A DNA stretch of 64,000 nucleotides from Bordetella sp. FB-8 (GTDB lineage Bacteria; Pseudomonadota; Gammaproteobacteria; Burkholderiales; Burkholderiaceae_B), in NCBI RefSeq assembly GCF_000382185.1, contig NZ_KB907784.1, positions 558,001-622,000 on the forward strand. The letters run 5' to 3'. The notes beneath the pieces are model-generated. The model saw only the letters and a program-made list of their open reading frames with translations. It made no database searches and had not been told where the DNA came from. A program made the translations under genes and the position numbers. This document shows positions 44,703 to 61,536 of the stretch, piece by piece (positions within the stretch are counted from its first letter, which is position 1; each line of letters opens with the position of its first letter).

Positions 44703-45580
44703 TAGGCTGCCGTCTTGAGCGGGCTGGCGACGGCGTTCCGGTCTGTGGCGATTTCCCGACCTGCGACAGCCAGCGCAAGCACAGGATTCAGACTATCGAC
44801 CATTGAAGTCGGCATGAGAATGGTGGCGCCCCGCTCCTTGGTTGTTTCGTAAATAATATTCATCGCCCGCAGCTGCAGTGCGCCGGGTTGACTTTCATAG
44901 ATCCGCGCTGCCTCGACGAAATTCGAGGCGATCGCGGCTTCCGACGAACCCAGAATCACGCGTGCCTGCTTTTCGCGTTCGGCCTGCGCCTGGCGGGACA
45001 TCGCATCCTGCAGCGCAACCGGAATCGCGACATCCCGGATCTCCACCGAACTGACCGCAATACCCCATGCGGCAGTCTTGCCTTCTATTTCGATCCGCAG
45101 ATGCGAGTCCGCTTGGACGCGATCCGAGAGCAGCGTCGAGAGCATCGAAGCGCCGATCAATTCCCGTAAAGTCGTCTGAGCCACTCGGTCGATGGCCTGG
45201 CGATAATCGGTAATCGATAAAGCCGCCTTTTGCGCGTCGTTCACATGCCAGAAGATAATCGCATCGACATTGACCGGCACCGTATCCTTGGTTAAAGCCT
45301 GCTCAGCGTTGAAAGCCGTGGTCTGGATCCGTTCATCAATGATTGCCACAATGCGATCCAGCAAGGGCACGATCATGAAAAATCCGGCCCCCTTGACGCT
45401 TTGCAGCTTGCCCAGCCGCAGGATCACGAACTTTTCCCATACATTGGCCACCTTGGCGGACAGGCCGACGAGAATCCCGACGACAATCAGCACGCCCCCC
45501 AGATAAAAATTGATCCATTGGCCAGCGGCAATACCGGCCAGGACAACCACAAGAGATAAAAATAAGGGAATCTGGTTCAT
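44702..45580 (-). CDS. SPFH/band 7 protein (slipin)
   Basis: The 292-residue protein has two N-terminal hydrophobic stretches and a SPFH domain with 'KFVILRLGKLQSVKGAGFFMIVPLLDRI', 'TKDTVPVNVDAIIFWHV' and 'RELIGASMLSTLLSDR'. Slipins scaffold membrane microdomains. The ATG at 45580 has GAGG at good spacing, whereas the TTG nine bases upstream does not. It is first in an operon with the glucan synthase, and a GTACG palindrome lies 79-92 bp upstream. It may organise the membrane around the huge synthase; this is inference. Confidence 0.9.
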   Translation of the reverse strand: MNQIPLFLSLVVVLAGIAAGQWINFYLGGVLIVVGILVGLSAKVANVWEKFVILRLGKLQSVKGAGFFMIVPLLDRIVAIIDERIQTTAFNAEQALTKDTVPVNVDAIIFWHVNDAQKAALSITDYRQAIDRVAQTTLRELIGASMLSTLLSDRVQADSHLRIEIEGKTAAWGIAVSSVEIRDVAIPVALQDAMSRQAQAEREKQARVILGSSEAAIASNFVEAARIYESQPGALQLRAMNIIYETTKERGATILMPTSMVDSLNPVLALAVAGREIATDRNAVASPLKTAA

Positions 45581-45658
45581 GGCAATCAACCTCGTTTGAT
45601 GCCCGCTCGAAAGAGCGATACATACTGCACACGGTGTTCATTTCCCCGAGTCCAGTCT

Positions 45659-45672
45659 GTACGTTGCCGTAC
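45659..45672. promoter_or_regulatory. Perfect GTACG-N4-CGTAC inverted repeat (site A)
   Basis: GTACGTTGCCGTAC lies between the divergent slipin and transaldolase genes, 79 bp from one start and 89 bp from the other. The 5-4-5 spacing is that of Crp/Fnr-family operators. Related sites occur upstream of other genes of the island, and a Crp/Fnr gene is at 57.9 kb. Confidence 0.7.
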
Positions 45673-45723
45673 CCAACCGCAGGCTTGCTTTTCGGTGTAA
45701 TTGCGCGCAAGGTGAATCGATCT

Positions 45724-45746
45724 ACGCACCTTTCTCGTCGGTGCGT
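45724..45746 (+). promoter_or_regulatory. Hairpin in the transaldolase leader
   Basis: ACGCACC (45724-45730) and GGTGCGT (45740-45746) can form a 7-bp stem with a 9-base loop, ending just before the GAGG ribosome-binding site of the transaldolase gene. It could affect translation or mRNA stability; this is not tested. Confidence 0.4.
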
Positions 45747-45760
45747 CAGCGAGGTCTCTC

Positions 45761-46834
45761 ATGAATGCGACAACCCGGCTTCATGCCCTAGGTCAAAGCC
45801 TATGGCTTGACAACATCACGCGCGATCTTCTGACCAGCGGCACGCTCGAGCGCTACCGCACCGAACTGTGCATAACGGGGTTGACGTCCAATCTGGCCGC
45901 CTTCGATCAGGCCATCCGCGACACGGCCGTCTACGACGACGCCATTGGCTGGAAGATCCGGCAAGGCATGCCATGCGAAACACTATTCTTCGAGCTGGCA
46001 ATGGAAGACCTGACACGGGCCGCCACGCTGTTTCGCCTTGTTCATGAAGCAAGCCATGGCATGGAAGGCTGGGTCTCGCTGGAGGTTTCTCCGCTGCTGG
46101 CCGATGACGTGGCTGGAACAATCGATACAGCCAGATGGCTTCATACCAGCGCGCAATGCAACAACCTTTTCATCAAAATCCCGGGCACGGCGGCGGGAAT
46201 TCAGGCCGCCGAAGAACTGATCTTCGCCGGCGTTCCGATCAACATCACGCTGCTATTTTCGCGCGGACACTATATCGCCGCGGCCGGCGCCTACGCACGC
46301 GGCATCCGACGCAGGGTTTACGCAGGCCTCGACCCGAAAGTCCATTGCGTGGCATCGATTTTCGTCAGCCGATGGGATCAGGCCGTCAAGGACATGATCC
46401 CGCCCGCACTGCGCAACCGATTGGGCATTGCCGTCGCCAGGCAAATATACAAAACCTATCGAGAACGGCTGATTGCGCCGCAATGGCGCGAGCTGGCCAG
46501 GAACGGCGCTCTGCCCCAACGGCTGGTGTGGGCCAGCACAGGAACGAGAGACCCGACGCTGCGCAGCGGATACTACGTCGAGGCGCTTGCCGCACCGCAC
46601 ACCATCAACACCCTGCCGGGAAAAACCATGCTCGAATTCGCCGAGCGGGGCGAGGTGCGCGGGGCGATGCGCGACGATGGCGGCGACTCCGAATCCTTGC
46701 TTGCCGAATTCGCGCAGGCTGGCGTGGGCATTCCAGCGCTTGCCGCGCAACTCCAGGACGAAGGCCGGCTTTCTTTCATTCGATCCTGGAACAAGCTGAT
46801 GAACCTCATCGCTGCGAAAGGCAAACCCACTTGA
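45761..46834 (+). CDS. tal: Transaldolase
   Basis: Transaldolase moves a dihydroxyacetone unit between sugar phosphates in the non-oxidative pentose phosphate pathway. The 357-residue protein has the active-site lysine in 'NNLFIKIPGTAAGIQAAEEL' and 'INITLLFSRGHYIAAAGAY', which fit the longer actinobacterial/cyanobacterial-type transaldolases. It is divergent from slipin with site A between, and the island also encodes transketolase and phosphoglucose isomerase. The ATG at 45761 has GAGG before it. Confidence 0.93.
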   Translation: MNATTRLHALGQSLWLDNITRDLLTSGTLERYRTELCITGLTSNLAAFDQAIRDTAVYDDAIGWKIRQGMPCETLFFELAMEDLTRAATLFRLVHEASHGMEGWVSLEVSPLLADDVAGTIDTARWLHTSAQCNNLFIKIPGTAAGIQAAEELIFAGVPINITLLFSRGHYIAAAGAYARGIRRRVYAGLDPKVHCVASIFVSRWDQAVKDMIPPALRNRLGIAVARQIYKTYRERLIAPQWRELARNGALPQRLVWASTGTRDPTLRSGYYVEALAAPHTINTLPGKTMLEFAERGEVRGAMRDDGGDSESLLAEFAQAGVGIPALAAQLQDEGRLSFIRSWNKLMNLIAAKGKPT

Positions 46835-46900
46835 GCCGGATTGTGTGCAAAAGAAAGGCCTATTCCAGTGGTTTTTATTCTTGATTATTTTCCGATGCGT

Positions 46901-46914
46901 GCACGCTAGCGTAC
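46901..46914. promoter_or_regulatory. GTACG-N4-CGTAC-like site B
   Basis: GCACGCTAGCGTAC differs from the island consensus at one base and lies 63-76 bp before the collagen-like lipoprotein start, a spacing similar to the other copies. Its central CTAG makes the whole 14-mer almost perfectly palindromic. Confidence 0.62.
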
Positions 46915-46976
46915 CGACTACGCCGTGATATTCCCGTAGCGTCTCATTATTCATGCAGACCAACAAAGGAATCATC

Positions 46977-47249
46977 ATGAAACATTCGAAGCTGATATTT
47001 GCCGCCGTGACCATGCTCGCGCTGGGTGCCTGCACCGGACCCCAAGGCCCGCAGGGCGAGATGGGCAATACCGGAAACACCGGGCGGCAAGGGGACTCGG
47101 GGTATAGCGGCGCGACCGGAGCGACCGGCGCTCCCGGGGCGACCGGTGACACGGGCGCCACCGGCACCACGGGGGCAAGAGGCAGCAACGGGGCCAGAGG
47201 CCCTGCCACTACCCCCGACGGCGCCGTGCTGCTCGTCCCGGCTCACTGA
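46977..47249 (+). CDS. Collagen-like repeat lipoprotein
   Basis: The 90-residue protein has signal peptide [17 protein letters not shown] and a lipobox LGAC, then an uninterrupted run of about 18 Gly-X-Y triplets ([16 protein letters not shown], ..., [14 protein letters not shown] and [11 protein letters not shown]), with threonine frequent in the Y position. This is the pattern of bacterial collagen-like proteins, whose triple helix can be stabilised by threonine. AAGGA precedes the ATG at 46977. It is probably transcribed with the NRAMP-type gene 24 bp downstream, under site B. Cell-surface anchoring is inferred. Confidence 0.85.
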
Positions 47250-47273
47250 AACTGACGCCGGGCCTGCCGCCCC

Positions 47274-48566
47274 ATGCACGCACCGGTATCCGATCCGGTC
47301 AAACAGCCGGACCGCCCCAAGCTGCTCCAGGTAATGGGGCCAGGCCTGATCACCGGTGCCTCCGACGACGATCCGAGCGGCATCGCCACCTATTCGCAAA
47401 TCGGCGCCAAGTTCGGCTACGAACTGGCCTGGACCCTGCTGCTGAGCTATCCCTTGATGGCGGCGATCCAGGAAATCAGCGCGCGTATAGGTCGGGTGAC
47501 CGGCTACGGCATCGCGGGCAATCTGCGCCGCCACTACCCGTCATGGCTTTCCCGCGGCATCGTCGGCCTGTTGCTGATTGCCAATATCGTCAATCTGGGA
47601 GCGGACTTGGGTGCGATGGGTGCCGCGCTCACGCTGCTTATCAACGGCCCCGCCCTGCTCTATGTCTGTCTGTTCGGACTGCTATCGGCCGCGCTGGAGA
47701 TCTTCACCCGCTATGCACGATACGTGTCGGCCCTGAAGTGGTTGTGCCTGTCGTTGTTCAGCTACGTGATTTGCGCCTTCGTCGTGCAGGTCCCGTGGGG
47801 CCAGGTCGCCCGGGCCGTAGTCTGGCCCCCGCTCTCCTTCACGCCCGGCTATATCGTGGCCATTGTCGCGGTCATGGGGACGACCATCAGTCCCTATCTC
47901 TTTTTCTGGCAGGCCGAGCAAGAGGTCGAGGACGAACAGGAGCGGCCCGACGGGGCGGGCGATCTCGTTCGCGCACCGTTGCGGGCGCACGCCGAATTCG
48001 CCCGCATCCGCATCGATACGTATCTCGGCATGGCGCTTTCCAACGTTATCGCCTTCTTCATCATCATCACCACCGCAACGACGCTGCACGCGCACGGCCA
48101 GACCGACATCCAGACCTCTGCGCAGGCCGCCGAAGCCCTGCGGGCCGTGGCCGGCCGCTTCACGTTCATTGTTTTCTCGGCGGGCATCCTCGGCACCGGC
48201 ATGCTTACGCTGCCCGTACTCGCCGGCTCGGCCGCCTACGCCGTGGGAGAACTGTTCTCGTGGCGCGTCGGTCTTGCGCGCCTACCCAGGCAGGCCAAGG
48301 CTTTTTATGCCGTCATCATCGCGGCCACCGCGATCGGCGTCGGCTTGAACTTCACGTCCATCGATCCCGTGAAAGCCCTGTACTGGAGCGCTGTCCTCAA
48401 TGGCGTGGTGGCGGCTCCGGTGATGGCCGTCATGATGCATCTTTCGATGCGTCAAGCCATCATGGGCACCTTCACGCTGCCGCCTGTGCTGCGCATCCTC
48501 GGTTGGATCGCGACTTTCGTGATGGCCGCGACAGTATTTGCCATGATCGCCACGTGGATAGCGTGA
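47274..48566 (+). CDS. NRAMP-related transporter with altered metal-site motif
   Basis: The 430-residue membrane protein has 11 or so helices. The NRAMP region in the first helix reads 'TGASDDDPSGIATYSQIG', where classical Mn2+/Fe2+ carriers have DPGN. In the sixth-helix region 'AVMGTTISPYLFFWQAEQEVED' replaces the usual MPHN segment with its metal-binding methionine. It thus belongs to the NRAMP-related group whose substrates include Mg2+ or Al3+ in some members, or are unknown. It follows the collagen-like lipoprotein on the same transcript. The start lacks a clear ribosome-binding site, so coupling to the upstream gene is likely. Confidence 0.85.
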   Translation: MHAPVSDPVKQPDRPKLLQVMGPGLITGASDDDPSGIATYSQIGAKFGYELAWTLLLSYPLMAAIQEISARIGRVTGYGIAGNLRRHYPSWLSRGIVGLLLIANIVNLGADLGAMGAALTLLINGPALLYVCLFGLLSAALEIFTRYARYVSALKWLCLSLFSYVICAFVVQVPWGQVARAVVWPPLSFTPGYIVAIVAVMGTTISPYLFFWQAEQEVEDEQERPDGAGDLVRAPLRAHAEFARIRIDTYLGMALSNVIAFFIIITTATTLHAHGQTDIQTSAQAAEALRAVAGRFTFIVFSAGILGTGMLTLPVLAGSAAYAVGELFSWRVGLARLPRQAKAFYAVIIAATAIGVGLNFTSIDPVKALYWSAVLNGVVAAPVMAVMMHLSMRQAIMGTFTLPPVLRILGWIATFVMAATVFAMIATWIA

Positions 48567-48707
48567 CCGGTCGGCACTGCCCTAGCGTTCGCCATCGGAC
48601 AGATACCGCTCAAAAATAGGAACATACGTGGTCTCGTGATCGAACACTCGTGGCCTTCACCTTTTGTGAAAGCCTAGGTTCCTCGTATATATCCTTGGAG
48701 ATTCACG

Positions 48708-49154
48708 ATGAAATGCACTCATTCCTTGGCTCGGCCGTTCGCCCTAACCGCGCTCGCGGCAGTTCTGCTTCTGGGTGCGGCCGTGTTGGCCAGACCAGCC
48801 GCCGCGGCCGGCACCCAGCCGGCGAGCCGAGCCGATACGCGCATAAACAGCCTTCATTTGCGCCTGCAAATCACTGCCGCGCAGGAGCCTCTCTGGCAGA
48901 CTGTTGCGCAGGTCATGCGCGACAACGACTTAGCCATCGAAGCGCTCGAGAAAGTCCGCGCCGAGGGCAAGAACACTATGACCGCCGTTGACGATCTACG
49001 GTCTTACGGCCAATTGATCGACGCCCATGCCGACGGCGTCAAAAAACTCGAACCGCCATTCGAGGCGCTTTACAAGACCCTGTCGCGTACGCAGAAGCAC
49101 AATGCCGACCTGATTTTCCGCAACGAAAGACACCCTGTACAAAAGAAGGGTTGA
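48708..49154 (+). CDS. Spy/CpxP-like periplasmic protein
   Basis: The 148-residue protein has an N-terminal export signal and a helical body with the Spy/CpxP (LTxxQ) pattern: 'RINSLHLRLQITAAQEPLWQTVAQVMRDN' and 'LEPPFEALYKTLSRTQKHNADLIF'. Spy-like proteins are periplasmic chaperones induced by envelope stress or metal. GGAG lies eight bases before the ATG. The upstream region has no convincing GTACG site; a TTCAC/GTGAA hairpin around 48653-48673 may end the preceding transcript. Confidence 0.82.
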   Translation: MKCTHSLARPFALTALAAVLLLGAAVLARPAAAAGTQPASRADTRINSLHLRLQITAAQEPLWQTVAQVMRDNDLAIEALEKVRAEGKNTMTAVDDLRSYGQLIDAHADGVKKLEPPFEALYKTLSRTQKHNADLIFRNERHPVQKKG

Positions 49155-49241
49155 TTATGGCGACTTCAATCACACGTATGCCGGCGAGGCATTTCATGCG
49201 CAACAAAAGGGTAGCCGCGTCTGGACTCGCCGTCGCGCCGG

Positions 49242-49253
49242 CCTGCCTGCCTG
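49242..49253 (+). repeat. (CCTG)3 tetranucleotide repeat at the frameshift
   Basis: Three CCTG units lie inside the presumed signal peptide of the frameshifted gene. Loss of one unit (4 bp) restores the reading frame. Tetranucleotide tracts are classic slippage sites, but three units is short. Confidence 0.7.
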
Positions 49254-49471
49254 CTCGCGACTCCGACGCTGCGAGCGCAAGAGGCTAACCGCGCAAGACA
49301 ACAGCACACCCATGGACATGAACCCCGGCATGCCGATCGGCATGGCAATGATCGCGGTGATGGCGCCGGCCACTACATAAGCTATCCGGGCTATGTCTAT
49401 GGTGCGCCCCCTCTGGTCTACGGACCATCGGTCGTGCCCCGGCATCAATCTCTTCCTGCCGCTTTGGCTTT

Positions 49472-49485
49472 GTACGCTGTCGTAC
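49472..49485. promoter_or_regulatory. Perfect GTACG-N4-CGTAC inverted repeat (site C)
   Basis: GTACGCTGTCGTAC is a perfect copy of both half-sites, 60-73 bp before the start of the SYLF lipoprotein gene and inside the 3' part of the frameshifted gene. Its distance to the start codon matches that of sites B and F. Confidence 0.7.
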
Positions 49486-49544
49486 CGCACCGGCGCGTGC
49501 ATCGGCGTAAGTTCGGGTAACTCACATCCCATCAGGAGAACATC

Positions 49545-50138
49545 GTGCTAAGAAGAAAATTCATACTGGGCACGCCCGGGTCGATTCTTGCAATCGGCTT
49601 CGCCGTCTCGGGCTGCACCATGACCGGCATGTCCGACGTCAAGACTCAAAGAGAACAGACCGACAAGCGCCACACAATTGACTCCGGAGTGGACTCGACC
49701 TTGACACGCCTTTATGCGGCTGCGAACGGTTCGCGCCAACTCGTCGAGAAAGCCCACGGTGTTCTGGTATTTCCGTCGGTCATCGATGCGGGCTTTGTCG
49801 TCGGCGGACAATACGGCGAAGGCGCGTTGCGCATCCATGGCCGCACGAGCGGGTACTACAGTACGGTTACCGGATCAGTGGGATGGCAGGCCGGGGCGCA
49901 GTCGCGTGCGATCATCTTTCTTTTCATGACGGAGGAATCGCTCAACAAGTTCCACAATGCCAAGGGCTGGTCTGCCGGCGGCGACGCATCGGTAGCTGTG
50001 CTGAAAATCGGCGCAAACGGCGCTGTCGACACCAGCACCGCAACCGGAGATGTCGATGCGTTCGTGCTGTCCAATGGCGGCCTGATGGCGGGAGTTTCGC
50101 TTCAAGGCACCAAGGTCACCCGGCTCAAATCGCTATAG
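49545..50138 (+). CDS. SYLF/YSC84-domain lipoprotein
   Basis: The 197-residue protein begins with GTG at 49545 after CAGGAG. It has a lipobox (AVSGC) and a SYLF domain: '[28 protein letters not shown]', '[19 protein letters not shown]', '[20 protein letters not shown]'. SYLF domains bind lipids in eukaryotic YSC84; bacterial members are exported lipoproteins of unclear, envelope-stress-linked function. Transketolase begins eight bases after its stop, so the two genes form one transcript controlled from site C. Confidence 0.9.
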
Positions 50139-50146
50139 CCGGCCCG

Positions 50147-52198
50147 ATGGACAACCAGACCCTGGACGCGCTGTGCGTCGACACACTGCGTTTTCTTTCC
50201 ATCGACGCGGTACAGCTAGCCCATAGCGGGCATCCCGGGCTACCGCTCGGCGCCGCGCCCATGGCTTACGCGCTGTGGTCCCGCTTTCTCAGGCACAACC
50301 CGGCCAATCCGGCATGGTTCGACCGTGACCGCTTCGTGCTGTCGGCGGGGCACGGCTCCATGCTGCTGTACAGCCTGCTGCATCTGACCGGCTATGACCT
50401 ACCGCTCGAGGAGATAAAGCGTTTTCGGCAGTGGGGTAGTCGCACGCCGGGCCACCCCGAGCGCGGCCTGACCCCCGGTGTGGAAACCACGACCGGACCG
50501 TTAGGCCAGGGATTCGCCAACGGCGTGGGCATGGCCATTGCCCAGGCCCATCTCGCCGCACGCTACAACCGCCCTGGCTACGACATCGTCGATCACTACA
50601 CCTACGGCATCGTCAGCGATGGGGATCTGATGGAAGGCGTTGCGTCGGAAGCGGCTTCCCTGGCCGGCCATTTGCGGCTTGGCAAACTGGTCTACCTGTA
50701 CGACGACAACCAGGTCACGCTTTCCGCGGGCACCAGCATCGCGTTTACCGAGGACCGTGCCCAGCGTTTCAGGGCCTACGGCTGGCACACCCAATGCGTT
50801 GAAGACGGCAACGATCTTGCTACCATCGGCCAAGCTCTGGCTCATGCCCGCGCCGAAACGCAACGCCCATCCCTGATCCTGGTGCATACGCACCTGGGTT
50901 ACGGATCGCCCAACAAGCAGGACACATACAAGGCACACGGTTCGCCGCTCGGTGAGGAAGAAGTGCGCCTGACCAAGCAGAACCTGGGCTGGCCGATCGA
51001 GCCGGCCTTCTATATTCCCGCCGCAGCTCAGACGCGTTTTCATCGCGCTCGAGTGGAAGGCTCGCAGCAAGAGGCCGAATGGAACGCCCTGATCGCCTCT
51101 TATACCCAGGCATTTCCCGTGCTTGCCGAAGAACTGCAACAGACAATGCAAGGGGAATTGCCCGATGGCTGGGACCGCGACATTCCGCATTTCCCCGCCG
51201 ATGCCACAGGCATGGCCACACGGTTCGCATCGGGCCGGGTCATGAATGCGATAGCGCCGCACCTTCCCGCGCTGTTCGGCGGCTCGGCGGACCTCGATCC
51301 CTCGACCTTTACCGCGCTGTCGGGCCTTGGGGACTTCGCCGCGCCCGGCGCCGACGCCCACGATAGGCAGGGTTCCAACGGGGGCGGCTGGAACCACGCA
51401 GGTCGCAATCTGCACTTCGGCGTGCGCGAGCATGCCATGGGCGCGATCCTGAACGGACTGGCCGCGCATGGCGGCATCATTCCGTTCGGTGCGACTTTCC
51501 TGATCTTCTCGGACTATATGCGCCCGCCGATCCGGCTTGCCGCGCTCATGCATCTTCATGTGATCCTTGTTTTTACGCACGACAGCCTGGCGCTGGGCGA
51601 AGACGGTTCAACGCACCAGCCCGTCGAGCAGCTCGCGAGCCTGCGGTCCGTGCCAGGACTGCATGTCATGCGTCCCGCCGACGCCAACGAGACAGCCCAA
51701 GCCTGGCGCCTGGCGCTGGAAACGAAAGACCGGCCCACCGCGCTCGTCCTGACGCGGCAGGACGTGCCGACTTTCGACCGCACCCGATTCGCCGCCGCCG
51801 ACGGACTGCGGCGCGGCGGCTACGTACTTGCCGACGCTCCCGGTGGGGAGCCGGCGCTGATCCTGATCGCCACCGGCTCCGAGGTCGCACTGGCGATGGC
51901 CGCGCGCGAACAATTGCTGGCGCGGCATATCGCGGTGCGCGTGGTTTCACTGCCTTGCTGGACCTTGTTCGACGCCCAGGAGCAGGCATACCGGGATGCC
52001 GTGCTGCCTGCGTCGGTGGGCGCGCGACTCGCGATCGAGGCAGGCGTAGCGCAAGGCTGGCATCGCTACATCGGCGATCGCGGCGGCGTGCTCGGCATAG
52101 ACGGCTATGGCGCCTCGGCGCCGGCCGACGTATTGCTGCGCGAATATGGGTTCACCGTCGACAACGTCTGCGCGCGCGCCCTGGCGCTGCTAGGGTAA
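50147..52198 (+). CDS. tkt: Transketolase
   Basis: Transketolase moves two-carbon units between sugar phosphates using thiamine diphosphate. The 683-residue protein has '[20 protein letters not shown]', the cofactor loop '[20 protein letters not shown]', '[11 protein letters not shown]', and the second domain '[20 protein letters not shown]' and '[20 protein letters not shown]'. The ATG at 50147 is the family start; the frame is open upstream inside the SYLF gene. It converges with phosphoglucomutase, overlapping by nine bases. Probably a second, stress-linked copy beside a housekeeping one elsewhere. Confidence 0.94.
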
Positions 52199-53845
52199 CA
52201 ACGCCACGCGCAACGCATCGTCGACCATCGCCTGGGCCTGATCGACGATGCGCGTGAGGTGTTCGTCGCCGAGGAAACTCTCCGCATAGATCTTGTAGAT
52301 ATCTTCGGTGCCCGATGGCCGCGCGGCGAACCATCCATTCTTGGCCACTACCTTGATGCCGCCGATGGCCGCGCCGTTGCCCGGCGCACGATCGAGCACC
52401 TGCTCGATCTTCTCGCCCGCCAATTCGGCGTGGGTAACCTGCGCCGGCGCAAGCCGGGCCAGCCGTGCGCGCTGCGGCGCCGTCGCCGCCGCCTGGATGC
52501 GACGCTCGACTGGGGCGCCCAACTGTCCGGCTAGCTCCTGGTAGCGCTCCGCGGGGTCGCGACCCATCCGTATCGTCATTTCCGCGGCCAGCAAGGCAGG
52601 CACCATGCCGTCCTTGTCGGTCGTCCAGGCCGTGCCATCGCGCCTCAGGCAGCTCGCTCCGGCGCTCTCTTCACCCGCATAACCCAGCGAGCCCTCGAGC
52701 AGGCCGTCCGAAAACCATTTGAATCCCGCCGGCACTTCGTAGAGCGCCCGGCCGTGCTTGCTCGCCACACGATCGATCATCTGGCTGCTGACAACAGTCT
52801 TGCCCACTGCCGCATCCGTACGCCACCCAGGCCGGTGCGTGTAGAGATAATCGACGAGAACAGCCAGATAGTGATTCGGCGCCAGCAAACCGGCGTGCCG
52901 GGTGACGATGCCGTGCCGGTCGTGGTCGGTATCGCATGCGAAAGCCACATCGAAGCCATCCCGCTGACCGATCAGCGCCTGCATCGCATAGGGCGACGAG
53001 GGGTCCATGCGGATGCGCCCATCCCAATCGACGCTCATGAAGCCGAAAGTCGGATCGACGATATCGTCGATCACGGTGAGATTCAGGCCGTAGCGCGCGG
53101 CGATCGGTTTCCAGTAATGTACGCCCGCGCCGCCCAGCGGATCGACGCCCAGGCGGATCGGCGAACCGCGCACGATGTCCATATCGATGACACCGGCCAG
53201 ATCACCCACATAGACATTGAGAAAATCATGCCGATGCATCGTCGCGGCACGTATCGCCCTGGACAGCGGCATGCGGCGCACTCCCTGGAGCCGACTTTCG
53301 AGCAGGCGGTTCGCCGCCGCTTCGATCCAGCCCGTCGCGGCCTCGCCGGCCGGCCCACCGTTGGACGGGTTGTATTTGAAGCCGCCGCTTTCCGGCGGAT
53401 TGTGCGAAGGCGTCACGACGATGCCGTCGGCCAGGCCAGCGGCACGGTTGCGGTTATAGGCGACAATGGCATGGGATATTGCCGGAGTAGGCGTATATTC
53501 TCCGTTTTGCGCGATCATGACCTCCACGCCGTTGGCCGCCAGGACTTCAAGCGCACTCGCGTAGGCCGGCTCGGAAAGCGCGTGCGTGTCAATGCCGATG
53601 AACAGTGGGCCGTCTGTCCCCTGCCGCGCGCGATACAGGCAAATAGCCTGCGTAATCGCCAGGACATGCCACTCGTTGAAACTGCATGTCAGCGAAGATC
53701 CTCGATGCCCGGACGTTCCGAACGCGACCCGCTGTTCCGTTATCGAAGGATCCGGCCGATCACTGTAATAGGCCGTGATCAGCCGGGGCACATTGACCCG
53801 TATCGAACGGGGTGCCGGCTTTCCGGCCTGCGGACTGACATACAT
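52190..53845 (-). CDS. pgm: Phosphoglucomutase (alpha-D-glucose phosphate specific)
   Basis: Pgm interconverts glucose-6-phosphate and glucose-1-phosphate, the precursor of UDP-glucose. The 551-residue protein has '[11 protein letters not shown]', the phosphoserine loop '[19 protein letters not shown]', the metal loop '[11 protein letters not shown]', the sugar loop '[15 protein letters not shown]' and the phosphate loop '[16 protein letters not shown]'. It lies 32 bp after pgi on the same strand. UDP-glucose made from its product is the substrate of the island's glucan synthase, which makes the grouping meaningful. Confidence 0.95.
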
Positions 53846-53877
53846 ACCTGCTCTCCCTGCCCAGACTAGGTTTATAG

Positions 53878-55545
53878 CTACGACGCCCGCTGATAGCGAT
53901 ACTGTCGTATCAGGGCGTTGGTCGAGCTATCGTGGTCCAGCCAATCCGGAGCCTCTTCCCGGGCTTCAGGCTGAATCTTCACTGCGATCCGCTTTCCCGG
54001 TTCGAAGCCCCGTTGATCGAACGAATCGATGTTCCGGATCGTGCCTTGCGTGAAAATGCTGTGCTCGTAAAGGGCGACGAGTTTGCCCAGCGTTTCAGGA
54101 GTCAGGCATTCGGCAAGAATTGTGCTTGAGGGACGATTGCCCTCGCAGACGAGATACGACGCCAGCCAGGGCGGCGTGCCATCGGTCTCTGCCTGAGTCA
54201 CTGTCGTACCGAAGGCGAGCGCCTCGGTCTGCGCGAATAGATTCGCCGTCATCAAGTCATGCGTAGGGTCATGCGGATCCAGGCTCCGGCCGAATCCGAT
54301 GAAATCGCACGGAATGACATGGGTATCCTGGTGCCCCAGTGGATAAACCGCGTGCTGTTCGTTGGCGCCCGGTTCGCCCCAATAGATCTGGCCGGTCGGA
54401 TAGGCGAACCGTGTTTCATCACACGAGACATGCTTGCCATTACTCTGAACTGCCAACTGCTGGAGGTACACGGGAAAGCGCTTCATATAATGATCATAAG
54501 GCAGTACTGCGACCGTCTGCGCACCAAAGAAATTGCTATACCAGATCGAAAGCAGCGCCATCAGCACCGGCAGATTGCGTTCGAATGGCGCGGTGCGGAA
54601 ATGTCGGTCCATTGCATGAATTCCGGCCAGCAGCCCACAAAAATTCTCGGGTCCTATGGCCATCATGATCGACAGACCTCCTGCGGAATTCATCGAATAC
54701 CGGCCCGCGACCTGGTCTCTGAGGCGAAACATATATTCCGTGTCGATGCCGAAATCCGCCACGCCTTGCGCGTTGGTCGACACGGCGACAAAATGGTGGC
54801 GTATTGCGCCCTGATCGCCCAGCGCGCGCAGACTCCACTCGCGGGCAAGACGGACGTTGCCCAAGGTTTCGGCCGCAGAGAAGGACTGAGAGCAAATGAT
54901 GAACATTGTCTCCTCGGGGTCGAGATCGCGGGTTTTTTCGAAAAAATCGGCCTCATCCGCACTGGAGACGAAGCGGAATTTCATATTGCCCTGGCTATAG
55001 TGGCGCAATGCTTCGTAGGCCATGTCCGGGCCCAGACCGTAACCCCCGACACCAATATTGACGATGTTACGAATCGGGCGGCCCGTGTGGCCGCGCCAGA
55101 GGCCGGCGCGGACGTCTTCGCAAAAAGCGGTCATGCGCTCCAGTACCACATTGGCGCCAGGCAGGACATCGTTGTCGTCGACAAATGTGCGCTCGCTGAA
55201 CGACGCGCACAAGGCCGCGCGCAGCGTAGTTCTCTGCTCGGTTACGTTGATCGCGACGCCGGTGAACATCGCTTCGATGCGCTGCGCCATATCGCACTCG
55301 CGGACCAGTCGCAACAAGAGCGCGATCGTCTCGCCGGTTACCCGATGCTTGGAATAATCGAAATAGAGACCGGCCGCATAAAGCACCATGCGTTCGCGAC
55401 GAAAGGGGTCATTCACAAAAAAGTCCCGCAGGTGCAAGTCGCGGATCTGCCGATGATGCGCCACCAGCGCTTGCCAGGCTGGACTTTCGGTAAGCGGCGC
55501 CATCGGCATGCCGACCGGTCGCGGTCGCTGCAATATCGATTTCAT
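53878..55545 (-). CDS. pgi: Glucose-6-phosphate isomerase
   Basis: Pgi interconverts fructose-6-phosphate and glucose-6-phosphate. The 555-residue protein has 'VNIGVGGYGLGPDMAYEAL', 'SFSAAETLGNVRLAREW', 'YWGEPGANEQHAVYPLGHQ' and 'NIDSFDQRGFEPGKRIA', the last two being the PROSITE-type Pgi signatures. It stands between a HAD phosphatase gene (23 bp upstream) and pgm. With transaldolase and transketolase, it can turn pentose or triose phosphates into glucose-6-phosphate for glucan synthesis. Confidence 0.95.
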   Translation of the reverse strand: MKSILQRPRPVGMPMAPLTESPAWQALVAHHRQIRDLHLRDFFVNDPFRRERMVLYAAGLYFDYSKHRVTGETIALLLRLVRECDMAQRIEAMFTGVAINVTEQRTTLRAALCASFSERTFVDDNDVLPGANVVLERMTAFCEDVRAGLWRGHTGRPIRNIVNIGVGGYGLGPDMAYEALRHYSQGNMKFRFVSSADEADFFEKTRDLDPEETMFIICSQSFSAAETLGNVRLAREWSLRALGDQGAIRHHFVAVSTNAQGVADFGIDTEYMFRLRDQVAGRYSMNSAGGLSIMMAIGPENFCGLLAGIHAMDRHFRTAPFERNLPVLMALLSIWYSNFFGAQTVAVLPYDHYMKRFPVYLQQLAVQSNGKHVSCDETRFAYPTGQIYWGEPGANEQHAVYPLGHQDTHVIPCDFIGFGRSLDPHDPTHDLMTANLFAQTEALAFGTTVTQAETDGTPPWLASYLVCEGNRPSSTILAECLTPETLGKLVALYEHSIFTQGTIRNIDSFDQRGFEPGKRIAVKIQPEAREEAPDWLDHDSSTNALIRQYRYQRAS

Positions 55546-55568
55546 GAAAATTCCTTGTCAAATATTGA

Positions 55569-56246
55569 CTACCTAGCGCTGCGCGATCGAGCAGCCAGAA
55601 CGGCTTCGTTCAGATCACCGATATGCTCGATGACGACATCGGCCGGCGGATAGGCGATGGCCGCCGGGTCCCGCGCGTAGTGCCCCTGGCGTGGAAATAC
55701 CGTTGTCAGGCGGCTCTCCCATCTTTGCTTCATCGTCGACAGAATGCGCAATTTGTCGTCGACCATCACATAGCGTCGGGCGGGATAGCACTTTGCAATC
55801 TCATCGAGCATCGTCTCTTTGTGGATATAGATCAGCACGCGGCCGCGCACCTCCGCCCACAACCCGGCGCGTTTTATCTTGTGCGGTTGGAACACGGCAT
55901 CGCCATCGGAGACAATAACGGTCTTGCCCATGGCACGCAGACGTCGCAAGGCCTCCAGCGCCCCGGGATACAGACGACTGGAAAACGGGTAGTCGATCAG
56001 GAATGAAGACATCCGCATCACGGGCGCATCACTGCGGTCTTTGCGTCGCAAGCGCTGCAATGCCCCCAGGTAATCCACGTAGCCCAGTTCGACACGCAAG
56101 GCTTCGGAAATCACCCAATACCTGTCGCTGTCGATTTGCCCAAATTCATCGACCATGCGAGCGCGCAAGTCTTCCAGTAGCGCATCGTTGTCCAAAAGCG
56201 TGTTGTCGCAATCGAAGAGAAGGATTAGGTCATCGGAATCTGGCAT
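55569..56246 (-). CDS. HAD-superfamily hydrolase
   Basis: The 225-residue protein has the HAD motif I 'LLFDCDNTLLDN', motif II in 'KTVIVSDGDAVF' and motif III/IV around 'RRYVMVDDKLRIL'. These enzymes usually remove phosphate from a sugar phosphate or nucleotide. The ATG at 56246 has AGAGGAAA before it, and the upstream part of the frame lacks homology. It appears to be the first gene of the HAD/pgi/pgm operon, with GTACG-like site F 73-86 bp upstream. The substrate is unknown. Confidence 0.85.
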   Translation of the reverse strand: MPDSDDLILLFDCDNTLLDNDALLEDLRARMVDEFGQIDSDRYWVISEALRVELGYVDYLGALQRLRRKDRSDAPVMRMSSFLIDYPFSSRLYPGALEALRRLRAMGKTVIVSDGDAVFQPHKIKRAGLWAEVRGRVLIYIHKETMLDEIAKCYPARRYVMVDDKLRILSTMKQRWESRLTTVFPRQGHYARDPAAIAYPPADVVIEHIGDLNEAVLAARSRSAR

Positions 56247-56318
56247 TTTTCCTCTTGCACGAAGTCGCCGCGACCATCGGAACTGCATGCAGTCTGAACG
56301 CGAAGCACCATGTCATCT

Positions 56319-56332
56319 GTCTGCCAGCGTAC
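56319..56332. promoter_or_regulatory. GTACG-N4-CGTAC-like site F
   Basis: GTCTGCCAGCGTAC has a perfect right half-site and a left half with two differences. It lies 73-86 bp before the HAD gene of the HAD/pgi/pgm operon, the same distance as the better copies. It shares the CCAGCGTACA core with site D. Confidence 0.45.
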
Positions 56333-56409
56333 ACACCCCCGTGTCTTACGCGAATGGATGGGGTTCAGTCTCGTTCCTGCGCATATCGCCCAAGCCATGA
56401 GCCGGCCGA

Positions 56410-57327
56410 TCAGGTCCCGAGTTTGCGCGCATCCTCGAAGGCCTTAGCCCACTTCGCATACTGCCCGGCGATGCGGTCCGCCGCCTGCTTGCGCGTGGCC
56501 TTGCCGGCCACGTAATCGGCAATGGCATCATGAAAACTGGTTCGCCCCACGGCGAATCCGATGAAACCGTCGACTTGCGCCGCGGTCTCGATCCAAGCGA
56601 TCACCTTCTTCTCATCGGCCCCACGCCCCAGCACGATGCAGCCGACATGGCCACGCCCGCCTCGGCGCGCCGCCACGACCATACTGCGGCAGTCTTCGCG
56701 GCAAGCCAGTCCTTCGATTTTCCAGACGACCGGCTCCACGCCGGCATCCTGCAAGGCGGTTATCGCGGCCAACATCAGGGGGGGCCGCATAGTCAGGTCG
56801 TAGACCGAAGGATCGTCATGCGCGTCCTGCAACTGCCCCGCCGTGGCGGGCACCAGCAATTCGAACATCAGCATTCGGTTCGTTCTGCGGCAATATTGCG
56901 AAAGCATCCTGAGCCGGGCAAGCTGACGCAGGTTCATCGCCGCATCGTCTTGCGGGTTGTAACGGACCAGCACTTTGGCGAACGTCGGGTCGACCGCTTC
57001 GATATGCGCCGCGAAATCATCGCCGTATTCGAACTGAAACTCGTCGGAACCGCTGCGCTCGACCGATACGGCCGTTGTATAGCCACGAGCGCGCGCATCG
57101 CGCAGGATCCCGGCGCCGAAGGCTTCATCGACCAGTACGCCAGCGAAGCGCCCGCACACGGCATGCTCGGCGGCCTGCAGGAAGCCTTCGTAAATAACCT
57201 GCTTGCTATCTACGATCCGCGCCTGCTGCCGGACATCCAGCGGAAATCCGAAATGGAACAGGTCGCTCACATAGGAGTTGCGATGGTCGAAAGGCAACAG
57301 ATAAAGGCGGTGCGCGCAGTCCGACAT
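56410..57327 (-). CDS. DUF2090/IolC-like aldolase-family protein
   Basis: The 305-residue protein begins 'LYLLPFDHRNSYVSDLF' and has 'GVLVDEAFGAGILRDARARG' and 'VEPVVWKIEGLACREDC', typical of the DUF2090 domain found at the C-terminus of inositol-pathway IolC and of class I aldolase-like proteins. A lysine in 'VVWKIEG' could form a Schiff base. It probably cleaves or binds a sugar phosphate, but the substrate is unknown. It follows a small secreted-protein gene with adjacent stop and start (TAG/ATG), so the two are coupled. Confidence 0.8.
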   Translation of the reverse strand: MSDCAHRLYLLPFDHRNSYVSDLFHFGFPLDVRQQARIVDSKQVIYEGFLQAAEHAVCGRFAGVLVDEAFGAGILRDARARGYTTAVSVERSGSDEFQFEYGDDFAAHIEAVDPTFAKVLVRYNPQDDAAMNLRQLARLRMLSQYCRRTNRMLMFELLVPATAGQLQDAHDDPSVYDLTMRPPLMLAAITALQDAGVEPVVWKIEGLACREDCRSMVVAARRGGRGHVGCIVLGRGADEKKVIAWIETAAQVDGFIGFAVGRTSFHDAIADYVAGKATRKQAADRIAGQYAKWAKAFEDARKLGT

Positions 57328-57762
57328 CTACATGGGCCAGCTAAATGTCTGGTGGACGTGTCGCGACCGGGAAACGGTCATCGCATGCTGTTGCGATTTT
57401 CCCTGGTAACTGGCGCTGACCGTATAGCGCCCATTGGGCAAGGAAACCAACATGAACGGACCTTCCGACAAGGCCTGCAAAACAATATTGCCCTGTCCAT
57501 CCTTGATGATTACCGGCACGTTGGCCAGATATTCCCTGGCATTTCCCGTCGAGCCGACGAACGTGAGGGTCAGCGGGTAATCGTGCATGACGCTTTTCAT
57601 GGCTGTCGACTGATCCAGGCCTATTCCTCCCGACAAATAACTTACCTGGCCCGCATGCTGCGTTGCAGGAAGCATTGGACCCGCGGCAAAGGCGGCTCCC
57701 CCCGTCACTGTGGCGAGCAAGACCACGACCCACGGCAAAAACGAAATTCCATGCCTTTTCAT
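57328..57762 (-). CDS. Small secreted protein with carboxypeptidase-regulatory-like fold
   Basis: The 144-residue protein has signal peptide MKRHGISFLPWVVVLLATVTG..AFA and then a beta-sandwich-like body ('VSYLSGGIGLDQSTAMKSV', 'YPLTLTFVGSTGNAREYL', 'VPVIIKDGQGNIVLQALSEGPFMLVSLPNGRYTVSASYQGK'). The last part resembles carboxypeptidase regulatory-like modules. GAGG lies six bases before the ATG at 57762. It is coupled to the DUF2090 gene. Function unknown; periplasmic location is likely. Confidence 0.75.
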   Translation of the reverse strand: MKRHGISFLPWVVVLLATVTGGAAFAAGPMLPATQHAGQVSYLSGGIGLDQSTAMKSVMHDYPLTLTFVGSTGNAREYLANVPVIIKDGQGNIVLQALSEGPFMLVSLPNGRYTVSASYQGKSQQHAMTVSRSRHVHQTFSWPM

Positions 57763-57861
57763 ATCGCACCTCATTAAACACATTCGGGCGATACGTCGCG
57801 TTGCGGTCAACGCGAAGACACCCTGTGAAAAACAGGCTGCGCGTCATTTGGGTCGAGGTCG

Positions 57862-57875
57862 GTACGGTGCCGATC
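57862..57875. promoter_or_regulatory. GTACG-N4-CGTAC-like site E (weak)
   Basis: GTACGGTGCCGATC has a perfect left half-site and a right half with two changes. It lies 100-113 bp before the small secreted-protein gene, and downstream of the Crp/Fnr gene. Reported as a weak candidate because it shares spacing with the other copies. Confidence 0.35.
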
Positions 57876-57900
57876 CATGGCGGGATCGAAGCCATGCCTT

Positions 57901-58620
57901 CTACAAAGCGCCGATATTGGGCAACAGGCGATCGGATTCGCGCTTGACCACGGCATAGCACTCGCACACGCGCTTTTCGAGTCCAGACCGGTCCAACACT
58001 TCGATATTGCCGTAGCTGTAACGGATCAGCCCTGCGTCCTGCAGCTTCATCGCCGACTCGGTAACCCCGGGCCGGCGAACGCCAAGCATGTTGGCAATCA
58101 ACTCCTGGGTCATCCTCAGCTTGTTCGAGGGCAGGCGGTCCATGCTCAGCAGCAGCCAGCGGCATAATTGCTGATCGATCGAATGATGGCGATTGCATAC
58201 GGCAGTCTGGGCCATCTGAGTGATGAGCGACTGGGTGTAGCGCAGCAGCAGCCGCTGCATCGGGCCGGCGCGATGGAATTCCTCTTTCAGTATGTGCGCG
58301 CTCAAACGATAGGCGGTCCCCGCGCTTTGCACGACCGCGCGGCTCGGAGTGGTTTCACCTCCCATGAACAGGGCAATGCCGACCAACCCTTCATTGCCCA
58401 CGACGGCTATCTCGGCGGACGCGCCGTCTTCCATCACGTAGAGCAGGGAAACGATGGCCGTGGAAGGGAAATAGACGTGGTCGAGCCGGTCGCCGGACTC
58501 GTAGATGACCTGACCCAGCGGCAGGTCCACTTGTAAGAGATGCGGACCGATGCGCGCCCATTCTGCTTCGGGCAAAACCGCGAGCAAGTGATTGCCCCGA
58601 TCTTCATGTGTATTGGACAC
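57901..58620 (-). CDS. Crp/Fnr-family transcriptional regulator
   Basis: The 239-residue protein has an N-terminal cyclic-nucleotide-like sensory domain ('LPLGQVIYESGDRLDHVYFPSTAIVSLL', 'AEIAVVGNEGLVGIALFMGG') and a C-terminal winged helix with 'MTQELIANMLGVRRPGVTESA'. There is no N-terminal cysteine cluster, so it is not an Fe-S FNR-type oxygen sensor. It starts with GTG at 58620 preceded by AAGGAG; the longer ATG frame lacks homology. It is the only Crp/Fnr gene in the island and the natural candidate to bind the GTACG-N4-CGTAC sites. Its signal is unknown. Confidence 0.9.
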   Translation of the reverse strand: MSNTHEDRGNHLLAVLPEAEWARIGPHLLQVDLPLGQVIYESGDRLDHVYFPSTAIVSLLYVMEDGASAEIAVVGNEGLVGIALFMGGETTPSRAVVQSAGTAYRLSAHILKEEFHRAGPMQRLLLRYTQSLITQMAQTAVCNRHHSIDQQLCRWLLLSMDRLPSNKLRMTQELIANMLGVRRPGVTESAMKLQDAGLIRYSYGNIEVLDRSGLEKRVCECYAVVKRESDRLLPNIGAL

Positions 58621-58681
58621 CGGACACTCCTTGACGATCGGTAAAAATGGAACCCTATGTGGTGCCGGATTAATAGACACG

Positions 58682-59071
58682 CTAGATAGCCGACGGAGCG
58701 GAAAAATAATCCCCGCGATCAACCAGGTGACGCATCCGAACTGCCGCCTGGATAGTCAGATAATGCGGCCAGGCTCCCTGCTTGGGAGAGATGAAGGCAG
58801 CCATGTCCAGCGCTTTGCGCCGCTGCCTGTCGGACACGCCTGCCAGCAATGCGACCACGAGGTTCTCCAGCGCGATGACCCGGGTGCGCAGTCGCATCAA
58901 TTCAAAATCCAGAAATAACCGGGGCCGACTCGAGTCCGTCTCATGGACATACCCTGGCGCCCAGGTACCTGCGCCACCTTCGTCATCCCAGCGGGCCAAG
59001 GCATTAGCCTGCGCCATGTCCTTCGATATCCGATTCGCATCGCGAGCCGGCCGAATTTCTTTCGTCTTCAT
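58682..59071 (-). CDS. Hypothetical protein, 129 residues
   Basis: The protein is not recognised. The body is helical and charged ('MAQANALARWDDEGGAGTW', 'FLDFELMRLRTRVIALENLVVALLAGVSDRQRRKALDMA'), with a possible coiled coil near residues 55-80, and there is no signal peptide or membrane helix. GGGA occurs eight bases before the ATG. It lies 61 bp upstream of the Crp/Fnr gene on the same strand and may be its operon partner. Coding is likely, as the frame fills the gap in this dense region. Confidence 0.6.
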   Translation of the reverse strand: MKTKEIRPARDANRISKDMAQANALARWDDEGGAGTWAPGYVHETDSSRPRLFLDFELMRLRTRVIALENLVVALLAGVSDRQRRKALDMAAFISPKQGAWPHYLTIQAAVRMRHLVDRGDYFSAPSAI

Positions 59072-59357
59072 GGATCATTCCCTGTTCCCTGCGATCGCGC
59101 AGTAGTCGATGTTCCAGCCTCACGCCGAATAAGAGGCTCGGGAGTTATTCCATGCGGTTCGGATGGTCCTGCCGCATTCGCCACACCGGGTACGAAGCGC
59201 CCCCAAAGCCACGGGAGAAGACAAAACAAAGACCCAAACTACATCAAGGCATGCGGAAATTTAGTACACCAGCGTACAAAGTAATGCCGAATTTTGGCAT
59301 CGGCATCATGAGATTCCAACGATAACCAAAGAAAGAGGAGACTTTGTCTACCAAGGC
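59072..59357. other. Non-coding stretch at the right end of the island
   Basis: About 290 bp without a convincing gene. The right part is AT-rich. It holds GTACG-like site D, about 193 bp before the hypothetical gene start, and then a GAAAGAGGAG purine run (59331-59340) that resembles a ribosome-binding site with no gene behind it. The pntB remnant follows. Confidence 0.55.
59264..59277. promoter_or_regulatory. GTACG-N4-CGTAC-like site D
   Basis: GTACACCAGCGTAC differs from the consensus at one base. It lies 193-206 bp before the hypothetical gene that precedes the Crp/Fnr gene, so it may allow the regulator to control its own transcript, although this is further away than at other sites. 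Confidence 0.55.
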
Positions 59358-59438
59358 CTGTTAATTCCAGGCAATAACCGCATACAGTTCGGCGACGCCA
59401 AGAGAATGCCGGACGAAGTGCCGGGCGCGCTCAAAGTC
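59358..59438 (+). pseudogene. pntB: Decayed pntB 3' end remnant
   Basis: The stretch translates as 'LLIPGNNRIQFGDAKRMPD' continuing 'EVPGALKV' and matches the end of the intact pntB ('[19 protein letters not shown]', 'VLAALKD'). The DNA is about 80% identical over the last 72 bases, with an exact 17-bp block (59387-59403 versus 34583-34599) and conserved codon phase. It has lost its stop codon and the rest of pntB is absent. This is what an element leaves when it inserts at the 3' end of a gene and restores it with its own copy. The downstream kinase gene overlaps its last bases. Confidence 0.8.
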
Positions 59439-60771: not shown

Positions 60772-61430
60772 CCTTCCCTGGAAACCATCCATCCGATACC
60801 CCTTACGTTTTTGATTGCCTCGCCGCCCAGTTTCTTACGCAGAGCGTGGATCAGGAACTCGATCGCATTGCTGGCAACTTCTGCCCCCCAACCGTAGAGC
60901 CGGTCTTCCAGTTCCGCGCGCGAAAGAATCGCCCCGGGCCGCAGCATGAGCGCCTGTAGCAGCGAGAATTCGCGGTTAGACAACGGTACGACGGCATCCC
61001 TGACGGTTGCCTCGTGCGTACCCAAATCGAGCGAAATGACGCCATTGGACAGCACGGAGCGCGCATTGCCCGCCCGGCGCCTGATCACGGCCCGCATCCT
61101 GGCCAGAAGTTCCGCCATATCGAACGGCTTGAGGATGTAGTCGTCGGCGCCCAGGTCCAGCCCCGCGATGCGGTCCTCGATCGCGTCCCGCGCGGAAATG
61201 ATGAGCACCGGCAGCATATGATTGCCGCCACGCATCTTCCGGAGCACCTGCATGCCATCCTGCCCAGGCAAAACCAGATCCAGGAGCATGACGTCGTAGT
61301 GCTGCCTGTCCAGCGCTTCCAGCGCATCGTTGCCGTTCTGCACCCAATCGACGGCATAGGCGCAATCTTTCAAAGAGCGCGTCACGACCTCGCCGATCAT
61401 GAGGTCGTCTTCCACTAAAAGCGTTCTCAT
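60768..61430 (-). CDS. Two-component response regulator, OmpR/PhoB family (PmrA/QseB-like)
   Basis: The 220-residue protein has a receiver domain with acid residues 'LVEDDLMIGEVV', phosphoacceptor in 'DVMLLDLVLPGQDG' and lysine in 'DDYILKPFD', and a C-terminal winged helix ('SNREFSLLQALMLRPGAILSR', 'NVRGIGWMV'). The ATG at 61430 gives the classical receiver start; earlier in-frame starts extend it without homology. OmpR-type regulators bind direct repeats with 11-bp period, and two such repeats are found upstream of the methyltransferase and MFS genes. Confidence 0.93.
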   Translation of the reverse strand: MRTLLVEDDLMIGEVVTRSLKDCAYAVDWVQNGNDALEALDRQHYDVMLLDLVLPGQDGMQVLRKMRGGNHMLPVLIISARDAIEDRIAGLDLGADDYILKPFDMAELLARMRAVIRRRAGNARSVLSNGVISLDLGTHEATVRDAVVPLSNREFSLLQALMLRPGAILSRAELEDRLYGWGAEVASNAIEFLIHALRKKLGGEAIKNVRGIGWMVSREG

Positions 61431-61536
61431 GAGGCCCGGTCCAATCTGATTCAATAGATTCATGTCTAACGTCATTTTCTCAGATCCCCATGGAATATAC
61501 GGAAATTAAGGGCTGAATCTCGCTGACTGGGCGCGC

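Follow-up and report, generated by a model that had tools for sequence, protein, structure and literature searches.

Sites and genes of the island

The DNA analysed here, called the window throughout, is a stretch of 64,000 nucleotides (C1:558001-622000) of the 4.08-Mb genome of Bordetella sp. FB-8. It carries an island of carbon-metabolism and envelope/stress genes together with a gene for a Crp/Fnr-family regulator, and a palindrome, GTACG-N4-CGTAC, recurs in front of these genes as the candidate operator of that regulator. An earlier note, made from the letters alone, had listed six copies, and all six stood where it placed them: two perfect copies at 45659 and 49472, two with one mismatch at 46901 and 59264, and two with two mismatches at 56319 and 57862. 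Site G, at 48587, had been overlooked; it starts 121 base pairs (bp) ahead of the ATG at 48708. Sites and genes are listed below, with open reading frame abbreviated to ORF and ranks referring to the matrix described further on.

36003..44702, minus strand: GH94-type protein, 2899 amino acids, with Glyco_hydro_94 domains; relatives identified by tblastn
44702..45589, minus strand: slipin (Band_7)
45659..45672, no strand assigned: site A, GTACGTTGCCGTAC, between slipin(-glucan synthase) and transaldolase; perfect; rank 1
45761..46834, plus strand: transaldolase
46901..46914, plus strand: site B, GCACGCTAGCGTAC, before the collagen-like lipoprotein/NRAMP unit; one mismatch; rank 6
46977..47249, plus strand: collagen-like lipoprotein, ORF from 46953 with likely ATG at 46977; collagen repeat, lipoprotein signal by eye
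47274..48566, plus strand: NRAMP transporter
48587..48600, plus strand: site G, GTTCGCCATCGGAC, ahead of the LTXXQ gene; differs from the GTACG form at two positions; rank 3
48708..49154, plus strand: LTXXQ family protein
49472..49485, plus strand: site C, GTACGCTGTCGTAC, before the SYLF/transketolase unit; perfect; rank 2
49545..50138, plus strand: SYLF / Ysc84 domain protein
50147..52198, plus strand: transketolase
52190..53845, minus strand: phosphoglucomutase
53878..55545, minus strand: phosphoglucose isomerase
55569..56288, minus strand: HAD-like hydrolase
56319..56332, minus strand: site E (tentative), GTCTGCCAGCGTAC, before HAD/pgi/pgm; two mismatches; rank 4 owing to its flanks
56410..57327, minus strand: DUF2090 aldolase-like protein; weak aldolase matches below cut-off
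57328..57810, minus strand: small protein, judged secreted by eye; CarboxypepD_reg-like match below cut-off
57862..57875, minus strand: site F (weak), GTACGGTGCCGATC, before the secreted protein/DUF2090 unit; two mismatches; rank 8
57904..58623, minus strand: Crp/Fnr-family regulator of about 239 amino acids, recognition-helix stretch GVRRPGVTES; longer ORF 57901-58722
58682..59071, minus strand: 129-amino-acid gene directly upstream of the regulator
59264..59277, minus strand: site D, read towards the 129-amino-acid gene and the regulator; one mismatch; rank 7

The 2899-residue GH94-type protein, which we take to be an ndvB-like cyclic glucan synthase, is probably encoded in one operon with the slipin. 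The 129-amino-acid gene had no Pfam or NCBIfam match and no tblastn relative in the pooled foreign neighbourhoods at E<=1e-10. For four sites a distance of 60-92 bp to a start codon had been proposed, and it held roughly, depending on the start codon chosen. Measured to the ORF start they are 88 bp (transaldolase) and 69 bp (slipin) for site A, 59 for C, 51 for F, 30 for E and 192 for D, while site B lies 38 bp from the ORF start or 62 bp from the likelier ATG at 46977. A scan of the window returned the four island sites as its only copies with no or one mismatch, in agreement with the inspection by eye.

A contig named uncultured Bordetella (L001) aligned with parts of the island at about 84-89% DNA identity; it does not reach the regulator region. 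The letters of site A were unchanged in this contig, as was the 102-bp offset to the transaldolase. Site C kept both half-sites with a changed spacer, the counterpart of site B kept one full half-site, and the 20-mer at site G showed three differences, all at degenerate positions.

The palindrome around related regulators in other genomes

We searched for the regulator in 151 genomes of the same family (18 with a match at E<=1e-40), 399 of the order (91 at E<=1e-90), 349 of one further family (56 at E<=1e-112) and 369 of the class (37 at E<=1e-80). From a part of the places found, 120 neighbourhoods of up to 20 kilobases (kb) were fetched. Sixty-one of them (L108-L167 and L044), four of which surround relatives at only 40-50% identity, were scanned with all 1024 half-sites at 11 spacers (0-10), the expectation being the product of the 5-mer frequencies. 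GTACG was the top palindrome of the 5-N4-5 form, with 15 copies against 0.47 expected, at 13 loci. At the same spacer GTGCG reached 27 copies against 2.96 and GTTCG 11 against 1.78. The predicted operator is broader than the GTACG form; extended by the flanks of the foreign sites it can be written TCTGTNCG-NYRN-CGNACAGA, with a variable third position.

The pattern GTNCG-N4-CGNAC was present within 350 bp upstream of 33 of the 66 orthologue genes in a first set, whereas the 256 patterns of the same form averaged 0.56 before these genes, the next best reached 7, and shuffled sequences gave 0.5 of 64. In a second set, made of Burkholderiaceae-type loci, the pattern again came first of the 256 (next best 6, shuffled mean 0.91). 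Here it preceded 11 of 69 orthologues, too few for autoregulation to be general, which is a point against our interpretation. Putative autoregulation therefore varies with lineage, from frequent to rare. The earlier note had read the palindrome as an operator of Crp/Fnr type and had suggested looking for it beside orthologous regulators; the operator reading is supported, and orthologous regulators in other genomes do lie beside the palindrome.

The same 61 neighbourhoods also held CAGAC-N4-GTCTG (15 copies against 0.98 expected, 12 loci) and TATGT-N10-ACATA (15 against 0.16, 15 loci), the latter more extreme than GTACG. No palindrome was conspicuous in the 350-bp regions ahead of 20 paralogue genes.

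A -10 element at a fixed distance from the site

The flanks of the foreign sites were analyzed in a pool of 207 site-gene orientations (L162-L167 lie outside it), reduced to 194 after removal of near-identical flanks and representing 147 distinct sites at 80 loci. Of the 194 orientations, 42, from 37 of the 80 loci, had a TAnnnT sequence starting 22 bp past the site; at the 36 other offsets between 8 and 44 it occurred 0-4 times each, with a mean of 1.25. As a site between divergent genes was counted once per direction, some orientations without a -10 element are expected. In an alignment of the SYLF loci, the flanks had diverged and the operator and the -10 element were conserved. The following elements were found in the window.

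46937..46942, plus strand: -10-like TAGCGT, exactly 22 bp past site B; identical in L001
48623..48628, plus strand: -10-like CATACG (not TAnnnT), 22 bp past site G; CATAAG in L001 and L190
49508..49513, plus strand: -10-like TAAGTT, exactly 22 bp past site C; same in L001
59236..59241, minus strand: -10-like TAGTTT, at exactly 22 bp from site D in the direction of the regulator

Many sites have the layout of a class II activator, in which the fixed -10 element would put the site near -41.5; this applies to B, C and D and not to A, E and F. The last three would also suit another explanation, namely that the palindrome is a repressor site or a two-way site, as A between its divergent units might be, and not mainly the site of a class II activator. 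The 152 of 194 foreign orientations lacking TAnnnT point the same way. However, a peak at a single offset, 42 against 0-4 at the 36 others, fits activation and is left unexplained by repression, and B, C and D all have TAnnnT at 22 bp. We consider repression or two-way action unlikely as the main role of the site.

Targets conserved at other loci

Counting a site within 300 bp upstream in other loci (some counts include L001), against a background of 307 of 6497 tiles (4.7%), we found the following. Of the SYLF genes, 11 of 13 had a site, 10 of them at -71 to -76, the window site being at -73. A site preceded 7 of 8 LTXXQ genes, at -155 to -164 (121 bp before ATG 48708 in the window), and all four relatives of the secreted protein. 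Lower fractions were obtained for the glucan synthase (7/16), slipin (5/17), NRAMP (6/21), HAD (2/7) and transaldolase (6/15; L044, from Pandoraea horticolens, and L202 are the same place, merged in the site pool and both counted here and in the two upstream counts). The remaining genes gave 2/17 for transketolase, 1/16 for pgm, 1/5 for pgi, 0/2 for DUF2090 and 0/1 for the collagen-like lipoprotein.

Matrix scores and copy numbers within the genome

A 20-bp matrix was built from 144 sites of other genomes, with the window and L001 excluded and eight core positions imposed by the search pattern. Applied to the window, it ranked A first, C second, G third, E fourth, B sixth, D seventh and F eighth, the last with a score of only 11.7. 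The strong part of this test is that seven of the top eight matches gather in one 13.6-kb stretch; as a caution against the individual scores, the reversed window used as control gave 18.3, 14.8 and 14.0, which A and C alone clearly surpass. The match of rank 5, TTGCGATACCGCAC at 19992-20005 (score 15.2), lies outside the island and opens a 137-codon ORF (19992-20405) that is response-regulator-like by eye.

Copy numbers within the genome gave a different picture. At up to two mismatches the window contained 25 copies against a shuffle mean of 19.6, and 14 of 100 shuffles reached 25, so that there is no enrichment. Perfect copies numbered 8 genome-wide against 12 for the control pattern, and copies with at most one mismatch 69 against 300. 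Two of the eight perfect copies are in the island, and three are one stretch within three 23S ribosomal RNA (rRNA) genes (Rfam). Finding four of the 69 copies in 13.6 kb has a Poisson probability of about 1e-4 for that stretch, and a cluster as tight arises somewhere in 9.5% of random placements. Since the motif was picked after looking, this last figure makes the clustering suggestive and no proof. It is the comparative data, not the counts within the genome, that carry the operator claim.

These counts, at or below control, and the ease with which such a cluster arises are what would be seen if a motif chosen by its reader had gathered in one island by accident. Against this stand the first place of the motif in the spacer-4 scan of other loci, its constant distance from SYLF, and the ranking of the island sites among the top eight by a matrix of foreign origin. 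Chance is refuted in the main for A, B, C, D and G, not for F and partly not for E, and as an explanation of the whole we regard it as very improbable.

The regulator and its relatives

On the longer ORF, the regulator matched PF00027 (39.9 bits, cut-off 27.5) and PF13545, HTH_Crp_2 (53.7 bits, cut-off 27), as is typical of the Crp/Fnr superfamily. A Foldseek search with its structure model returned the folds of CRP, GlxR, FNR and NtcA; the model itself is modest, with a mean predicted local distance difference test (pLDDT) score of 70.5 and residues 67-95 below 50. The window's genome contained one match to the regulator clade at E<=1e-40, besides seven other Crp/Fnr-like candidates on first look. 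The regulator had no match in the six same-genus genomes listed, which points to its horizontal acquisition.

If the regulator reads the palindrome, genomes with a close orthologue might differ in copy number from those without, that is, with no match at the E-value used. Each of 12 genomes with a close orthologue (chosen from 56) held 3-14 perfect YR-centred copies (71 in total, control 40). The 8 genomes lacking one (chosen from 293) held 0-3 each (14, control 36), and so did the 6 of the same genus that lack it (4, control 28). Mann-Whitney tests, one-sided, gave 2.0e-4 for 12 against 8 genomes and 1.5e-5 for 12 against 14, figures that are tempered by the fact that the genomes were picked, differ in size and were not counted per base. 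The copy counts associate the operator with the regulator. The proposal that the neighbouring Crp/Fnr protein reads the palindrome is likely, on the strength of the sites upstream of orthologues and of the higher counts where a close orthologue is present.

The palindrome could instead be the operator of another regulator, either a member of the Crp/Fnr paralogue family about 40% identical to the island protein or an unrelated dimeric factor, with the island protein as a co-regulated passenger. Paralogues could indeed share the operator elsewhere, as 7 of 24 paralogue genes also had a site upstream, a point against our interpretation, and many foreign loci hold two or three Crp/Fnr genes. Yet the window's genome has sites with its single clade match, among the genomes picked more copies occur where a close orthologue is present, and sites precede half of the first-set orthologues themselves (33/66). 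A different reader of the palindrome is, in our judgement, improbable.

Further matches in the same genome

The palindrome had been presented as probably specific to the island, which did not hold, as the genome also has strong matches outside it. Within the parts of this genome that were examined, the best match, TCTGTGCGGTATCGCACAGA at C1:653505 (score 24.2), lies about 31 kb past the end of the window, and a second one is at C1:653389 (score 19.1). Both are situated between phosphoketolase and 6-phosphogluconate dehydrogenase; downstream of the latter are glucose-6-phosphate dehydrogenase, another transaldolase and another Pgi. A perfect palindrome at C1:1600655, with TATTGT at 22 bp, stands ahead of a P-type ATPase, and a site at C1:2363449, with TATCTT at 22 bp, stands ahead of a gene for a 157-amino-acid protein without Pfam match. 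A match at C1:644613 (score 20.0) precedes a ferritin-like gene.

Around C1:653505, the genes xfp, gnd, zwf, tal and pgi make up another pentose-phosphate/phosphoketolase cluster (C1:650941-659177).

A candidate class II activator

The site, its spacing, the position of the -10 element and the gene neighbourhood are conserved, and from these we infer binding by the regulator and activation. In our favoured explanation, which we hold to be likely, the island's Crp/Fnr protein has the palindrome as its operator and is an uncharacterised class II activator of genes for the pentose-phosphate/phosphoketolase route and for envelope stress. A dimer of the regulator would bind the operator, whose centre would then lie about 41.5 bp before the transcription start, and would contact the polymerase at a weak -10 element, the TAnnnT that starts 22 bp downstream, activating transcription. 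The regulator would in this way control its own operon, the transaldolase and SYLF-transketolase. Probable further targets are HAD-pgi-pgm and the envelope/stress genes for slipin, NRAMP and LTXXQ, as well as, elsewhere in the genome, the phosphoketolase/gnd-zwf-tal-pgi genes.

Several results weigh against this explanation. TAnnnT is absent at 22 bp from site A in either direction and from sites E and F, E having CAGACT there. It is also absent at 22 bp from the match before the ferritin-like gene and from both phosphoketolase/gnd sites, and our confidence was lowered because of these last two. At other loci, a site seldom lies immediately before a metabolic gene, transaldolase excepted; those with few sites of their own may be internal to operons. 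Finally, the degenerate pattern is not enriched in the window's genome (43 against 47 for the control), and 16 of the 23 matches examined there, in 20 stretches, fall inside open frames of a simple gene caller, including the one at C1:653505 (a 93-codon frame); three of the 23 are in rRNA.

The clade is widespread in the Burkholderiales and apparently uncharacterised: at least 8000 relatives were found at E<=1e-60, with only generic names among the 120 listed. For these proteins our analysis offers a testable operator, promoter layout and target list. The predicted circuit would place SYLF, slipin, NRAMP and LTXXQ proteins under common control with enzymes of central carbon metabolism, giving a route into the function of several of the former, and would be an example of an NtcA-like promoter layout outside cyanobacteria.

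Comparison with known regulators

According to PMC3898017, the canonical NtcA promoter of cyanobacteria has GTAN8TAC centred at about -41.5 and a -10 box TAN3T, and a spacing of 22 nucleotides is given there for ilvG. The system studied here resembles it in several respects: both regulators belong to the Crp/Fnr family, GTAcgN4cgTAC fits GTAN8TAC, TAN3T lies 22 bp downstream, and the layout is of class II. However, the regulator scored 25 bits on the NtcA equivalog TIGR03697 (cut-off 244.95) and is not NtcA. The operator differs as well, with a CG/CG core, a YR centre and a variable position 3, the phylum is another one, and the targets found here are carbon and stress genes.

The half-site had been described as distinct from those of Fnr (TTGAT) and Crp (TGTGA), and this was confirmed, the half-site in the broader operator being TGTNCG. 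The FNR consensus is TTGAT-N4-ATCAA, and in FNR/Anr proteins N-terminal Cys residues hold a [4Fe-4S] cluster. Family membership is shared with the island regulator; neither this operator nor a conserved N-terminal Cys set is, the only N-terminal Cys of the regulator being kept in 12 of 67 covering hits.

FNR/Anr-type regulators including BCAM0049 are discussed with the lxa locus of B. cenocepacia in PMC3759415, PMC9104464 and PMC6127331, the last naming the Anr-like BCAM0049 a potential oxygen-sensing regulator. A Pandoraea locus with the same genes as the island resembles lxa in also having universal stress proteins and a second Crp/Fnr gene. Identity with the lxa system was considered and not adopted; the main texts of the three papers mention no motif or palindrome. 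Neither GTACGNNNNCGTAC, GTNCGNNNNCGNAC, GTGCGNNNNCGCAC nor GTACG-N4-CGTAC was found in the sampled part of the literature matching TGTACG, and no paper on this regulator was found by title or start of abstract in a search that left most subscription journals outside.

The E. coli CRP site is TGTGA-N6-TCACA. The operator resembles it in TGT at its edge, and differs in the half-site. The regulator shares cNMP_binding and HTH_Crp_2 domains with CRP and GlxR, and the nearest solved folds were M. tuberculosis CRP and C. glutamicum GlxR; identities among the fold matches listed were 14-21%. Like GlxR, it has an Arg preceding the residue that aligns with Glu in the GlxR SRE motif, which we take to be E181 in E. 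coli CRP numbering. The E181 equivalent is P in the window protein, S or P in most Burkholderiaceae-type orthologues and E in most others, and at TAnnnT sites the third base of the half-site was A34 C4 T2 at S/P loci and G16 T16 A10 at E loci. A specificity code relating this residue to base 3 was rejected, lineage explaining the pattern at least as well: two genomes of one genus with E-type regulators had 13 A, 3 T and no G in 16 half-sites.

The histidine kinase and OmpR-type response regulator pair that adjoins the regulator operon (59431-61475) has no matching site of its own.

Conserved Cys residues of the clade are found at 176, 187, 253 and 255 (numbering of the 273-residue ORF). C176, H180, C253 and C255 were kept in 198 of 198 orthologue hits, which are not independent as loci L248-L277 largely repeat the places of L188-L247 (the same holds for a count of 30/61), and in all 33-34 paralogue hits covering them. 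It may be suggested, tentatively and with more doubt than confidence, that the clade represents a sensing type new to the Crp/Fnr family. Its Cys/His set (C176 and H180, with C253 and C255 near the C-terminus) would sense redox state, a metal or a small ligand. In response, carbon would be redirected to the phosphoketolase/pentose-phosphate route, and envelope-stress proteins switched along with it, by a mobile regulon that is self-contained and has an operator of its own.

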